This document shows positions 48,705 to 59,129 of a DNA stretch of 64,000 bases, piece after piece (position 1 is the stretch's first letter; each line of letters opens with the position of its first letter). A model generated the notes under the pieces. That model had not been told where the DNA came from. It did not search any database and saw only the letters and a list, made by a program, of their open reading frames with translations. A program made the position numbers and the translations under genes. Source of the stretch: Desulfurobacterium thermolithotrophum DSM 11699. Lineage in GTDB: Bacteria; Aquificota; Aquificia; Desulfurobacteriales; Desulfurobacteriaceae. The stretch spans positions 1,184,501 through 1,248,500 of the forward strand of contig NC_015185.1 in assembly GCF_000191045.1 (NCBI RefSeq). The letters run 5' to 3'.

Positions 48705-49080
48705 TTACAAACCTCTCTATTAAAATATCCTCTTTTTTACGTATCTTAAGTGTTTCTGCTTTCTTTTTCTTTTCTAAAAGCTTTATCTCACTATTTATTG
48801 TGAAAATTTTTTCTTTTTGTTTTTCAAAAACTCTATCAATACTAATTATAAGTTTTTCTAAATTTTCGATATCTTCTAAAAGTTGATTTTGAAAAGTAGT
48901 TCGTAGAGAAAGAATTAATATATTTTCCACATCGAGTTTTTTTGTTTCTTCAAGTTCTTCTTTACATTTTTTTAGTTTTGCTTCAAGTTCTGACTTTTTT
49001 TTCTCAATTAGAAAAAGCTTCCTTTTTTCTATCTCCAATTCTTTCTTTTTAATTTCTATTAGTAAATTAAGTAATTTCAT
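48673..49080 (-). CDS. fliJ: flagellar export chaperone FliJ
   Basis: A 135-residue protein that is almost wholly coiled coil, with Lys/Glu-rich heptads and a conserved-type stretch SLRTTFQNQLLEDIENLEKLIISIDR. The length, helical pattern and context fit FliJ, the central stalk that links the FliI ATPase to FlhA. Sequence identity in this family is low, so the call rests on architecture and on its absence from its usual place beside fliI. The tail (VLSYPRSV) is unusual in containing proline. Confidence 0.75.
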   Translation of the reverse strand: MKLLNLLIEIKKKELEIEKRKLFLIEKKKSELEAKLKKCKEELEETKKLDVENILILSLRTTFQNQLLEDIENLEKLIISIDRVFEKQKEKIFTINSEIKLLEKKKKAETLKIRKKEDILIERFVNEVLSYPRSV

Positions 49081-49088
49081 TTAAACCT

Positions 49089-50117
49089 CTAAGTTTTATT
49101 CTTTACAGCAAGTTGTGCTAATTTCTGTTGTTCTTTCTTGACAAAATCGTGAATAAATTCCTGATCTTCAGGTTTAATTTTTTCAAACTTGATTCCGTAA
49201 CATGTAGAATATCTTTTCGGATAAACGTTTACAACTACTGATCGTATTGGAAAATCTTTACCACTAAGTTGAAACTTCACTACCACTTCTGTCATTGGAG
49301 TAATTTCTTCTTTTAATTCAGAGATAGGAATACACAACTTCAATCCCCCTGCACTAATATCAACAATTTTTCCTTTATACCATATTATTTTATCTTCTCT
49401 TTTATCATAAATTCCTAAGAGTCCATCTATTTCCACTTCTACCCTTGCATATTCTCTTCTTTGATATCTAGTAAGCTCAAATGTATGAGGAATTTTAAGC
49501 ACGAGCTTTCCGTTATCTATATAGGTCTCTTTCACAGTTCCTTCCAAAGCATATATACCATCATTCTTTCTTATAAAAGATATTTTTACCTTTTTTTCTA
49601 TCAGGCTAAGATTTGAGGGAATTTCTTCAATTATTGCCCAATACATAAATCTTTCATCTTTATCAAATAGAGCCACATCAAAGCTTAAATTATCTACATA
49701 AAGTTTTCCAGGTTGAAATAACTCTATATCTTTTGTACTTGTTAATGGAACGAAATAGGGTACAAAGTCGAAACCCAATTTCGTTCTCATGTCTTGGATT
49801 ATTTCTTCTTTTGCATTTGGGTCTGTTTTAATATACAAGTCAACAACTTTTTCAAAAGGAGCTTTGAATTCTAAAGAAAGAAAAGGATCTCTTCCCATCT
49901 TTTTAGAAAAATTCCAAAGCACTGCGGCTTCTTCTTTTGTTAAAGATCTTTCTAAAGCTTCTTTGAAAAAAGAAATCCTTAAGTTTTTTTCTCTTAGATA
50001 TTCTTTTATTATACCTGCTAACAGAAAAAATAGTACGATTAAGACTATGATCAAAACAAATACAGTGACAGTCATAATGTCGGCTGATGGCAATTTTAAG
50101 AAATCAATACGATTCAT
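49089..50117 (-). CDS. membrane-anchored PilZ-domain protein (c-di-GMP effector)
   Basis: A protein of about 342 residues. An N-terminal membrane helix (IMTVTVFVLIIVLIVLFFLLAGII) is followed by a helical region, a YcgR-N-like beta barrel (about 130-215) and a PilZ domain with the c-di-GMP motifs RREYARV and DISAGGLKL. PilZ/YcgR-type proteins slow or steer flagellar motors on c-di-GMP binding; the placement beside fliJ and flhB fits this. The start is uncertain: ATG at 50117, ATG at 50129 and TTG at 50150 are in frame and none has an ideal ribosome site. It heads the minus-strand trio. Confidence 0.87.
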   Translation of the reverse strand: MNRIDFLKLPSADIMTVTVFVLIIVLIVLFFLLAGIIKEYLREKNLRISFFKEALERSLTKEEAAVLWNFSKKMGRDPFLSLEFKAPFEKVVDLYIKTDPNAKEEIIQDMRTKLGFDFVPYFVPLTSTKDIELFQPGKLYVDNLSFDVALFDKDERFMYWAIIEEIPSNLSLIEKKVKISFIRKNDGIYALEGTVKETYIDNGKLVLKIPHTFELTRYQRREYARVEVEIDGLLGIYDKREDKIIWYKGKIVDISAGGLKLCIPISELKEEITPMTEVVVKFQLSGKDFPIRSVVVNVYPKRYSTCYGIKFEKIKPEDQEFIHDFVKKEQQKLAQLAVKNKT

Positions 50118-50170: not shown

Positions 50171-50250
50171 TAGCAACTATTAGGAAATTCCTGCTTCAAA
50201 TACATGGTTTAGAAATTCTCAAGGTGTCCACCATGTATTGAACTCGAACA
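50171..50250 (+). pseudogene. decayed right end of an IS481-type element
   Basis: The last 32 bases (50219-50250) are identical to 59000-59031, the right end of the intact IS481-type element, including the 28 bp terminal repeat ending in AACA. Upstream bases translate, in the transposase frame, to NY-stop-EIPAS...FRNSQG, which vaguely matches the transposase end (NYKTPAEKF...IRSHQG), with stops and a small deletion. No left end is seen nearby. So an old copy once sat here with its right end next to the promoter that follows. Confidence 0.8.
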
Positions 50251-50255
50251 CCTCC

Positions 50256-50283
50256 TTGACAAATTGTTAATAAGAACTATTAT
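50256..50283 (+). promoter_or_regulatory. strong sigma-70-type promoter
   Basis: A perfect TTGACA (50256-50261), 16 bases, then TATTAT (50278-50283, five of six consensus bases). Transcription would start near 50290. No gene begins soon after; instead a terminator follows about 40 bases downstream, so the promoter probably serves a short RNA. The IS481 remnant ends five bases before the -35. Confidence 0.75.
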
Positions 50284-50289
50284 TAATAT

Positions 50290-50354
50290 AGACCCCTATC
50301 CCCCTCCCTCCTCCCCAAAGATGAAAGGGGCGCCGGTAGGCGCCCTTCTTTTTT
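50290..50354 (+). ncRNA. candidate short C-rich small RNA
   Basis: Between a strong promoter and a strong intrinsic terminator lie about 65 transcribed bases. The 5' part (50293-50316) is almost only C and T and contains CCTCC and CCTCCC, the same sequence as the anti-Shine-Dalgarno end of 16S rRNA. The 3' part is the terminator hairpin. CCCC (50313-50316) can also pair with GGGG (50327-50330). No open frame of note. It could be a base-pairing regulator of messages with GGAGG sites, or an attenuated leader of mnmA. No family is recognised. Confidence 0.55.
50328..50354 (+). terminator. intrinsic terminator
   Basis: A perfect 7 bp stem GGGCGCC / GGCGCCC with a GGTA loop (50328-50345), followed by TTCTTTTTT. 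This is a textbook rho-independent terminator on the plus strand. On the minus strand there is no T-run. Confidence 0.92.
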
Positions 50355-50522: not shown

Positions 50523-51575
50523 ATGAAAAAGGTTATTCTTGGATTCAGCGGAGGGATAGATAGCTTTTATACTGCTTACCTTCTAAAGGAACAAAGATTT
50601 AAGGTGTTTCCTGTTTACTTTAAAGTTCTTCCTGATATTTCCACTGAGAAAGCAGAAGAAAGTGCTTCCATTCTTGGTTTAGGATTAACAGTTATCGATC
50701 TATCTGATGAATTTAGAAAGAAGGTTATAAACCACTTTATTGAATACTACAAGAAAGGTTTAACCCCAAATCCATGTGCCATCTGCAACAAAGATATAAA
50801 GTTAAAGTATCTGTACGAACTCTCTAAGGAATTAAAAGCAGATTTCATTTCAACTGGGCACTATGCAAAAGTTAGTTACTTTGACAAGTGGAAAAAGAAT
50901 CTGATCTTACGCGGAAAAGATAAAAGAAAAGAACAATCTTACTTTTTATCCCTCGTAGAAAAATTTGTTTTTCAAAAGTTACTTTTACCATTAGGGAACT
51001 TTACAAAAGAAGAAGTGGTATTAAGAGCTCAAGAGCTTGGATTTCCCTTTGAAAGTGAAAGTCAAGATATATGCTTTATTGAAGGACATTACGTTAATTT
51101 TCTTGAAAAGTTTATAAAACCTAAGCCAGGAGTTTTTGTTCTAATAGATGGAACTCCTGTTGGAAAACATAAAGGGTACTACAAATATACTGTTGGTCAA
51201 CGGAGAGGGCTTGGAATTTCCTATACTAAACCTTTGTATGTTATTTCTATAGATGCTAAAAGGAACAGAGTTATTGTAGGAGAAAAAAAAGAGATACAGA
51301 AAGATATCATCTACGTTAAAAATATTAACTGGCACTTAGACTATGAAGTTGTTAAAAAATTTGATACTATTCAGGTTCAAATTAGGTATCGTTCAAAACC
51401 TGTAGAAGTAGAAAAAATAGACTATTTAAAAAATGGAATTTTTTGTGTAAAATTAGCAGCGAAAGTTGATGCACCTGCACCAGGACAGGTGTGTGCATTT
51501 TATAGTAACGAGCTCCTCCTGGGAGGAGGTGAAATAACTACGGAAGGAGAAGGGATATGGAAGGAAGTCTTGTAG
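50523..51575 (+). CDS. mnmA: tRNA-specific 2-thiouridylase MnmA
   Basis: MnmA, 350 residues, thiolates uridine 34 of tRNAs for Glu, Gln and Lys. PP-loop: LGFSGGIDSFYTAYLL. First catalytic cysteine: LTPNPCAICNKDIKL; second: ESQDICFIEGHYVNFL. The tRNA-binding and C-terminal barrel parts follow (YTVGQRRGLGISYTKPLYVISID, QIRYRSKPVEVE, APAPGQVCAFYSNELLLGGGEI). Length is normal. Its last 19 bases overlap the start of the ATP synthase b' gene, so the tRNA enzyme and ATP synthase are co-transcribed. Confidence 0.96.
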   Translation: MKKVILGFSGGIDSFYTAYLLKEQRFKVFPVYFKVLPDISTEKAEESASILGLGLTVIDLSDEFRKKVINHFIEYYKKGLTPNPCAICNKDIKLKYLYELSKELKADFISTGHYAKVSYFDKWKKNLILRGKDKRKEQSYFLSLVEKFVFQKLLLPLGNFTKEEVVLRAQELGFPFESESQDICFIEGHYVNFLEKFIKPKPGVFVLIDGTPVGKHKGYYKYTVGQRRGLGISYTKPLYVISIDAKRNRVIVGEKKEIQKDIIYVKNINWHLDYEVVKKFDTIQVQIRYRSKPVEVEKIDYLKNGIFCVKLAAKVDAPAPGQVCAFYSNELLLGGGEITTEGEGIWKEVL

Positions 51576-57353: not shown

Positions 57354-57800
57354 TTAAACTACTTCAAGTATAATAGGTTTGCTTACCCAAAGTCCGTGTA
57401 AGTTGCAGTATCCAAGACCTTCAAGTATTGCGTTTCCGGGTTTATCAATTTTAACTGTGAAAAGAGCCTTAGGAGCTCCTTGAGTCGCTCTAAATGTTGC
57501 TTTTACAACTTCAAATTTATCTATCCATAAAGCTACAGACTCTATCCAGTGAGTCATAGTATTTGGATGAGGGTGATAATATCCAACCTCAACGTAAACA
57601 TCAAACCATTCCCCAGCTCTTACTTTCTTAGGAGCCTTTACATATGGAGTATGTTTTCTTCCTCCAATAGATTTTAAATCAGGTCCAAATACAGGAAATT
57701 TTTCTTCTGCAGCTTTCGTTATTTCTGAAACTGTAACCCCTCCTCCTAAAAAAACTCCTGTTGCCAGAATAGTTTTCTTAATAAAATCTCTCCTATCCAT
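57354..57800 (-). CDS. Tat-exported superoxide reductase (neelaredoxin-type)
   Basis: A 148-residue protein with a Tat signal (DRRDFIKKTILATGVFLGGG) and one domain of the desulfoferrodoxin/neelaredoxin class. The iron site can be read off: His50 (GRKHTPYV), His78 and His84 (HPHPNTMTHWI), Cys132 and His135 (YCNLHGLW). No N-terminal rubredoxin-like FeCys4 domain is present, so it is the one-iron form. The glutamate that usually precedes the first histidine (EKH) is Arg48 here. It reduces superoxide to peroxide without making oxygen, in the periplasm. The alternative, a SoxZ-like carrier, is unlikely given the five ligands. Confidence 0.85.
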   Translation of the reverse strand: MDRRDFIKKTILATGVFLGGGVTVSEITKAAEEKFPVFGPDLKSIGGRKHTPYVKAPKKVRAGEWFDVYVEVGYYHPHPNTMTHWIESVALWIDKFEVVKATFRATQGAPKALFTVKIDKPGNAILEGLGYCNLHGLWVSKPIILEVV

Positions 57801-57906: not shown

Positions 57907-59031
57907 TGTTGAAGTTCAGATAGAAGGTGGACACCCTACAATAACCTTTGAATACCACAAGGAGGTGTCCACCGATGAAACAATTGAAAAGATTCAAAGG
58001 AACATCCCTCCATATATCAAGCACAAATACAGCATTCAAAGAAACCCTGAAAGAAGGAAGAAGAGTAAAAAAGAAACTTGACCTAACAAAAGACAGAAAT
58101 GTTAAAAGGAGACTCAAATGGATAGAGTATTACCACAAAACAGGCAACGCCAGAAAAACATGCAGATACTTTGGCATCAGTCCAACAACCTTCTACAAGT
58201 GGAAAAAAAGATACGACAAGTACGGGATAGAAGGACTCCAAGACAGAAACAAAAGACCTCATAAAGTAAGACAACCCCAAACAGAACCTGAAATAGAACA
58301 CATCATCGTCACAATAAGGGAAAAATTCCCAACCTGGAGCAAAGAAAAGATAGCAGCCTTCATGGAAAGATACCTAAATGTAAAAATATCATCCTCTACA
58401 GTTTACAGGGTTCTCAAAAGACACGGACTAATAGAAAGAACCTGGAAACTAAAAAGTACCTACAAGAGGAAGAAACAGAAAGGGAAAAAGAACCGCACCA
58501 GAAAAGGACTAAGAGCAGACAAACCAGGAACAATCCTCATGGACGTTAAATACCTCTACTGGTGCGGTAAAACCTTTTACCAGTTCACGGCAATAGACAA
58601 GTTCACCCGAATAGCATTTGCCAAGGTTTATTCTACAAAAAGCAGCAGGAGCGGAAGAAGGTTTTTTGAAGAACTTGAAAAATTTCTTCCCTTCAAGATA
58701 GAGAAAGTTCAAACGGATAACGGGAGCGAATTTTTAGGGGAGTTAGACGAATATCTTAAAAGAAAAGGGATAGAACACTACTTTAGTTATCCGAAATCTC
58801 CCAAGACTAATGCGCATGTAGAAAGGTTTATTCAAACGACAGAAAGTGAACTATGGATGATAGAAGGAACAGAACCGACTGTTGATGAGATGAATAAAAA
58901 ACTTTTTGAGTATTTAAAGATTTACAACTTTCTTAGACCCCATCACTCTTTAAATTACAAGACTCCCGCTGAGAAGTTTGAGGACTATATTAGAAGTCAT
59001 CAAGGTGTCCACCATGTATTGAACTCGAACA
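57907..59031 (+). mobile_element. IS481-family insertion sequence, complete
   Basis: A 1125 bp element with one transposase gene. Terminal inverted repeats are 57907-57935 and 59004-59031 (24 matches over 28-29 positions, one gap); both begin TGTT and include a perfect GGTGGACACC block. A 5 bp target duplication GCTTC lies at 57902-57906 and 59032-59036. The right boundary is confirmed by an old copy at 50250 whose identity stops at exactly the same base. It is inserted between the superoxide reductase promoter region and the -35 box of rplM. Confidence 0.93.
57914..57973 (+). promoter_or_regulatory. transposase promoter and RBS-occluding hairpin
   Basis: TTCAGA (57915-57920), 16 bases, TACAAT (57937-57942) can form a promoter within the terminal repeat, with a start near 57949. 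GGTGGACACC of the repeat (57926-57935) is perfectly complementary to GGTGTCCACC (57964-57973), which covers half of the AAGGAGGTG ribosome site and ends one base before the ATG. RNA entering from outside would fold and hide the start; RNA begun inside would not contain the first arm. Confidence 0.65.
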
Positions 59032-59129
59032 GCTTCTTGACAATTCCGATTTACTTTAGTAAATTCCCACGTGCCCGCTACATTTTCGGCGTTCAAGAAA
59101 AACGCCAAATTTTGGAGGAAAACAGATGA
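57975..59129 (+). CDS. IS481-family transposase
   Basis: A 384-residue DDE transposase. An N-terminal helix-turn-helix ([29 protein letters not shown], about residues 52-80) is followed by a second HTH and an rve integrase core with Asp190 ([10 protein letters not shown]), Asp248 (VQTDNGSEF) and Glu283 (TNAHVERF), 34 residues apart. The ATG at 57975 has an AAGGAGGTG site; a TTG nine codons earlier is the alternative. The element encodes 352 residues and has no stop codon of its own: the last 32 residues come from the rplM leader and the TGA overlaps the rplM ATG. Confidence 0.93.
59037..59065 (+). promoter_or_regulatory. rplM-rpsI promoter
   Basis: A perfect TTGACA (59037-59042), 17 bases, then TAAATT (59060-59065). 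Transcription would start near 59072, giving a leader of about 54 bases. The IS481 element and its target duplication end exactly at the base before the -35, so the core promoter is intact but upstream sequence has been replaced. Confidence 0.75.
59088..59118 (+). promoter_or_regulatory. hairpin in the rplM leader, next to the RBS
   Basis: GGCGTT / AACGCC (59088-59093 with 59101-59106, 7-base loop) lies just before TTTGGAGG, the rplM ribosome site. rplM-rpsI leaders in several bacterial groups carry a structure bound by L13 for feedback control; this may be a counterpart, though I cannot match it to a known family. Confidence 0.4.

Follow-up and report, generated by a model that had tools for sequence, protein, structure and literature searches.

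The window analyzed here, a 64,000-nt stretch of the Desulfurobacterium thermolithotrophum DSM 11699 genome, contains a very short promoter-terminator unit upstream of mnmA, and this raises the question of whether so small a unit is a gene in its own right and, if it is, what controls its RNA and on what the RNA would act. The initial annotation had described a TTGACA-16-TATTAT promoter and an intrinsic terminator that delimit an RNA of about 65 nt, with a C-rich, anti-Shine-Dalgarno-like tract bearing CCUCC repeats. All of these elements are present (Table 1). The promoter, with its 16-nt spacer, matches the consensus at 11 of 12 positions and is the top sigma-70-type site in 5 kb, the RNA is predicted to be 64-65 nt long if it starts near 50290, and the CCUCC repeats are seen in the core. 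The order from promoter to terminator is GA-CCCCTATCCCCCTCCCTCCTCCCC-AAAGATGA, and the terminator stem is GC-rich. Two details of the description needed correction: the distance from the -10 hexamer to the terminator stem is 42 nt instead of about 38, and the C-rich half, which was said to consist of C and U only, includes one A.

Table 1. Features of the small RNA locus and its surroundings, in window coordinates
Feature	Position	Strand	Remarks
Right-end remnant of an insertion sequence (IS) with a DDE (rve) transposase	50209..50250	+	Immediately precedes the -35; 27 genomic copies
-35 hexamer, TTGACA	50256..50261	+	Same place in nearly all relatives
Fur-type 7-1-7 box, TAAGAACTATTATTA, overlapping the -10	50271..50285	+	Family form TGAGAACTATTATTA; Fur consensus TGATAATNATTATCA
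-10 hexamer, TATTAT	50278..50283	+	Invariant in the alignment
Predicted small RNA, about 65 nt	50290..50354	+	Start placed from sequence, ~7 nt past the -10
C-rich core, CCCCUAUCCCCCUCCCUCCUCCCC, predicted to be single-stranded	50293..50316	+	Invariant in the 20 genomes compared
Linker	50317..50325	+	Length and sequence differ among genomes
Terminator stem-loop	50326..50347	+	Hairpin kept in relatives with other letters
Terminator T-run	50348..50354	+	Read from the sequence
mnmA (tRNA 2-thiouridylase)	50523..51575	+	Usual but not obligatory downstream neighbor

The IS end lies outside the conserved unit and is absent upstream of most orthologues; a further copy of it is found in the window at 58990-59043. 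In 12 of the 27 genomic copies the right end precedes a TTGACA -35 hexamer by exactly 5-6 bp, most of the other copies have a TTG trinucleotide at the same spacing, and the ends often lie at tRNA and ribosomal-protein promoters. The element thus looks like one with -35 promoter elements as its targets, which it does not disrupt. A diverged IS end is also present just upstream of the small RNA -35 in genome G007 and at the small RNA promoter of G019.

Conservation in relatives was examined by blastn against 41 genomes. Besides the D. thermolithotrophum genome, 20 of 21 further Desulfurobacteriaceae genomes had the unit, and it was not found in any of the 19 genomes from outside that family; when 84,980 species genomes were scanned for an exact 22-nt match, 11 loci came back, each in a genome named Desulfurobacteriaceae, Desulfurobacterium or Thermovibrio. 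When 20 loci, that of D. thermolithotrophum among them, were aligned, the 24-nt core CCCCTATCCCCCTCCCTCCTCCCC was identical at 24 of 24 positions in every one, the linker varied in both length and letters, and the terminator varied in letters, its hairpin being rebuilt in relatives (GGGCGCC/GGCGCCC versus GGCCGCC/GGCGGCC). The conserved block extends beyond the -10, with TGAGAACTATTATTAATA retained in most of the Desulfurobacteriaceae. As a yardstick, identity over the first 600 nt of mnmA is 64% on average, and no invariant run exceeds 2 nt. Recurrence in 20 of the 21 other family genomes and a core that is the same in all 20 aligned loci, compared with the 64% average of mnmA, exclude chance as an explanation. 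Rfam searches of the whole window and of the local region gave no family at gathering score, and the matches below that score, such as U7 and rli36, were taken as chance. On this comparative evidence the locus is very probably a genuine, ultraconserved small RNA gene. The retention of promoter and terminator in the Desulfurobacteriaceae is what the initial annotation had proposed as a check, and the outcome left intact its view that this is a small RNA in its own right that bears an anti-Shine-Dalgarno-like tract.

The box that covers the -10 hexamer provides a clue to how such a gene might be controlled. Boxes were scored against the generic Fur consensus TGATAATNATTATCA, which was not derived from these sites and gives a maximum of 14. 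Scores of at least 11 were obtained for 15 of 20 small RNA promoters, 11 of 20 fur2 upstream regions and about 16 of 20 suf-sor loci, where the box is close to the beginning of the sufC-sufBD-superoxide-reductase operon; these counts come from related genomes and are therefore non-independent observations. In the background of 447 gene upstream regions of the D. thermolithotrophum genome, 10 reached 11 or more and 50 reached 10; the small RNA box of this genome scores 10/14, weaker than the family copies. A family-wide search likewise showed the box in the vicinity of suf genes and beside a gene of the Fur family, and the boxes at suf of G002 (TTAACGATAACTATTATTAA) and at the small RNA of G001 (TTAATGAGAACTATTATTAA) are nearly identical. 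In G007, a 21-nt operator stands as a tandem duplicate at the small RNA promoter. The window holds, in addition, a second desulfoferrodoxin-like gene (57381-57662, minus strand), separate from the suf-linked one.

These matches are to be read with the caveat that the box overlaps an AT-rich -10 element. When matches to the box pattern were simply counted in the D. thermolithotrophum genome, there was no excess over the control, so the evidence for the box rests on the orthologous promoters. Genes of the Fur family were detected in 22 of 22 family genomes, two in each except for one partial genome. The top models for the Fur2-like protein are those of PerR, which score best, yet under every curated cut-off, and the signal sensed by Fur2 could therefore be peroxide rather than iron. 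feoAB is a classic Fur target; its promoter does not have this type of box and carries a different palindrome instead, AGTTAATA-N-TAT-N-TAACT. Across the feoAB promoters a palindrome, AGTTAATANTATNTAACT, is conserved that resembles a DtxR-type rather than a Fur-type operator. Taken together, the orthologous promoters make it quite likely that a Fur-family protein controls the small RNA.

We then considered on what the RNA could act. The core is predicted to be open, with an unpaired probability of 0.88 in the D. thermolithotrophum RNA and a mean of 0.95 over 20 genomes, and Hfq genes were found in 21 of 22 family genomes. Stretches covering about 30% of the genome were sampled, and against the ribosome sites of the 449 genes in them the C-rich tract gave a mean predicted energy of -11.5 kcal/mol, the best value being -30.6 at atpF. 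Pairing of the tract with Shine-Dalgarno sites is probable. Extended complementarity was not detected: with 18 nt and at most three mismatches the D. thermolithotrophum genome contained no complement besides the small RNA itself, and a 15-nt complement search found 53 matches versus 52 in the reversed control. Aconitase is acted on by iron-sparing small RNAs elsewhere and had for this reason been preselected, as had LeuC. The aconitase start, which is conserved and of the GGAGGAG-ATGGG type, ranked only in the top 2-16% in 15 genomes, and aconitase as a target is suggestive only.

The same scan bears on the alternative that the RNA mimics the 16S tail as a broad anti-Shine-Dalgarno attenuator, dampening many mRNAs with no dedicated set of iron targets. 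The CCUCC repeats of the core would suit such a role, strong duplexes were predicted at the ribosome sites of many unrelated genes among the 449 (atpF and an NhaD-like antiporter are among the top), and Fe-S genes were not enriched among the targets (p = 0.87) in what was a crude test, with only 9 Fe-S-like genes in a sample of about 30% of the genome. However, all 24 nt of the core are invariant, which is beyond what an anti-Shine-Dalgarno mimic should require, and the operator, being common to this gene and to genes for Fe-S repair and superoxide reductase, suggests that the output is a specific stress response. We regard a general attenuator as unlikely. That the RNA could act as a broad translational repressor, as the initial annotation had put it, is a conjecture in both respects, repression and breadth: the sampled scan revealed strong pairing potential at many ribosome sites, and no defined regulon.

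A function that involves no mRNA pairing is less probable still. The RNA could be a sponge for a protein that binds C-rich RNA, or the DNA of the template strand could form a G-quadruplex, as in families f1 and f4 four runs of at least three G are found in the core's complement. The related RNAs of family f3 nevertheless fail the four-run quadruplex pattern, a quadruplex could do without such invariant details as CUAUC and CCUCC, and the conserved promoter and terminator point to a transcript; both versions appear improbable. That the unit is a cis-acting leader or attenuator of mnmA is very improbable, even though 13 of the 20 loci have mnmA directly downstream and in the same orientation. 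Genomes G008, G009, G013, G014, G016 and G019 have a different next gene, on the opposite strand, and an unchanged core, which makes an mnmA leader unlikely and by itself largely refutes it; moreover, the only stable fold predicted is the terminator hairpin in the 3′ half of the RNA, and 168 nt separate this hairpin from mnmA in the window. That the unit encodes a short protein or a Pro-rich leader peptide can practically be dismissed: a 66-codon TTG-started ORF does span the unit in the window, but its start is upstream of the -10, the segment from the predicted transcription start to the core has no start codon, and linker lengths shift the frame among genomes.

The reading that we prefer, with a probability of roughly 0.6, is that of a trans-acting, base-pairing small RNA that would be released by a Fur-family protein under iron or oxidative stress and would silence mRNAs through their Shine-Dalgarno sites. 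A Fur-family repressor, most likely an auto-regulated Fur2, would occupy the box over the -10 and leave it upon iron shortage or oxidative stress, the operon for SUF Fe-S assembly and superoxide reductase being released alongside. The RNA of about 65 nt would then be transcribed from its own promoter and ended at its own terminator, and its 5′ 24-nt tract, remaining single-stranded, would base-pair with selected mRNAs at their G-rich Shine-Dalgarno regions, Hfq probably assisting, so that ribosome binding is blocked. Of this scheme the conserved gene, the box in common with fur2 and suf-sor, the open core as predicted and the presence of Hfq genes come directly from sequence, the other steps being proposed. 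The outcome would be an iron-sparing or stress-sparing response; such a role is plausible, at slightly less than even odds.

Several known RNAs resemble this putative regulator. FsrA of Bacillus subtilis is Fur-repressed and binds the Shine-Dalgarno sequence with a C-rich motif (PMC9410917). The two share a C-rich tract complementary to the Shine-Dalgarno sequence, here by prediction, and a Fur-type operator, but there is no sequence family match, the phylum is different, and FsrA uses FbpA, FbpB and FbpC where the genomes examined here have Hfq genes. IsrR of Staphylococcus has Fur boxes in its promoter and single-stranded C-rich regions that are conserved genus-wide (PMC9410917). It is similar in its promoter box and its conserved C-rich sequence (predicted to be single-stranded in the present case), but is 174 nt long, with three C-rich regions among stem-loops, in contrast to one continuous tract in 65 nt. 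The alphaproteobacterial alpha-r14, Cuckoo and NfeR1-type RNAs carry an ultraconserved, unpaired anti-Shine-Dalgarno motif, CCUCCUCCC (PMC10746234), placed in each of three hairpins; the Desulfurobacteriaceae RNA departs from this architecture, having one linear tract, one terminator hairpin and a Fur-type box. RyhB of Escherichia coli is Fur-repressed and belongs to the iron-sparing response (PMC9410917), but no sequence or structural similarity to it was found (no Rfam match). A Fur-type operator like those of RyhB, FsrA and IsrR is found at the small RNA promoters, strong in the family copies and weaker in D. thermolithotrophum. Judged by analogy, FsrA and IsrR are functionally closest, together with the alpha-r14 RNAs. 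Since no Rfam family was matched and the alpha-r14 architecture is not that of this RNA, we place it in a new family within a known kind of RNA.

C-rich RNAs may also occur more widely in the class. The 12-mer CCCCCTCCCTCC is carried by 97 of 121 class genomes, and within the Desulfurobacteriaceae it occurs 60 times in total versus 2 for the reversed control; its sites comprise stray matches in coding DNA and several distinct RNA-like units. A second unit of the family, consisting of CCCCCCTTTTCCCCCTCCCTCCCC and its own terminator, lies directly 3′ of tRNA-Glu(TTC) in at least 11 family genomes, in D. thermolithotrophum near genome coordinate 214725. MnmA acts on tRNA-Glu. The mnmA gene thus adjoins the first small RNA and the second C-rich unit adjoins the substrate tRNA of MnmA, which is possibly a coincidence. 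Family f3 has two C-rich RNA-like units, in which an ATGAT-N4-ATCAT repeat is conserved, with a generic Fur score not clearly above background. In family f4 the unit is preceded by a promoter of its own and includes, besides a terminator of the GCCCCACCGCCCGGTGGGGC type, one extra hairpin.

The tmRNA and SRP positions of genome G060 agree with the published Aquifex aeolicus coordinates, and the core in this genome (989764-989775) lies inside the ncRNA candidate n68, or Aae-65 (989704-989840). According to Table 3 of PMC4227106 a transcript of n68/Aae-65 was detected (cDNA 476/756), and the main text of that paper names neither a C-rich tract nor a function for it. The orphan Aae-65 thus maps onto the C-rich RNA of family f4, so that transcription of such a C-rich RNA is established for one species of Aquificota. 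Like the small RNA studied here, Aae-65 has its own promoter, a terminator and a C-rich tract (CUCCCUCCCUCCCCCUCCCUCCCC), but its 5′ part is longer, an extra hairpin is possible, and no Fur-type box was recognized. Only the low-complexity motif is evidently common to the two, the flanks differing by eye, and homology among the kinds of C-rich RNA cannot be proved on such low-complexity sequence.

As to Hfq, family f1 has a normal Hfq and two adjacent larger proteins with an Hfq-like domain (about 165-190 aa; genome coordinates 48856-49533 in D. thermolithotrophum), f3 and f4 genomes have a second short Hfq, and the two f2 genomes are without Hfq and without the C-rich motif.

The initial annotation was thus partly supported; it had overlooked that a Fur-type operator covers the -10 and that related C-rich RNAs are spread over the class. 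Whether these RNAs form an ancient, class-wide Aquificota system of C-rich anti-Shine-Dalgarno RNAs, with one motif placed on different promoters, is rather doubtful. If they do, the motif would be driven from a Fur-family operator, from the 3′ end of a tRNA-Glu transcript and from a separate promoter (Aae-65), and would constitute a common translation brake of thermophiles with several input signals.

The literature searched contained no Fur-type-controlled small RNA in Aquificota. The gene described here is tiny, ultraconserved and simple to test, and it gives Aae-65, for which the text of PMC4227106 names no function, a testable hypothesis. Enterics, pseudomonads, bacilli and staphylococci arrived at iron sparing through unrelated RNAs, and the Desulfurobacteriaceae small RNA suggests that deep-branching thermophiles, too, may have an RNA solution to the sparing of iron.
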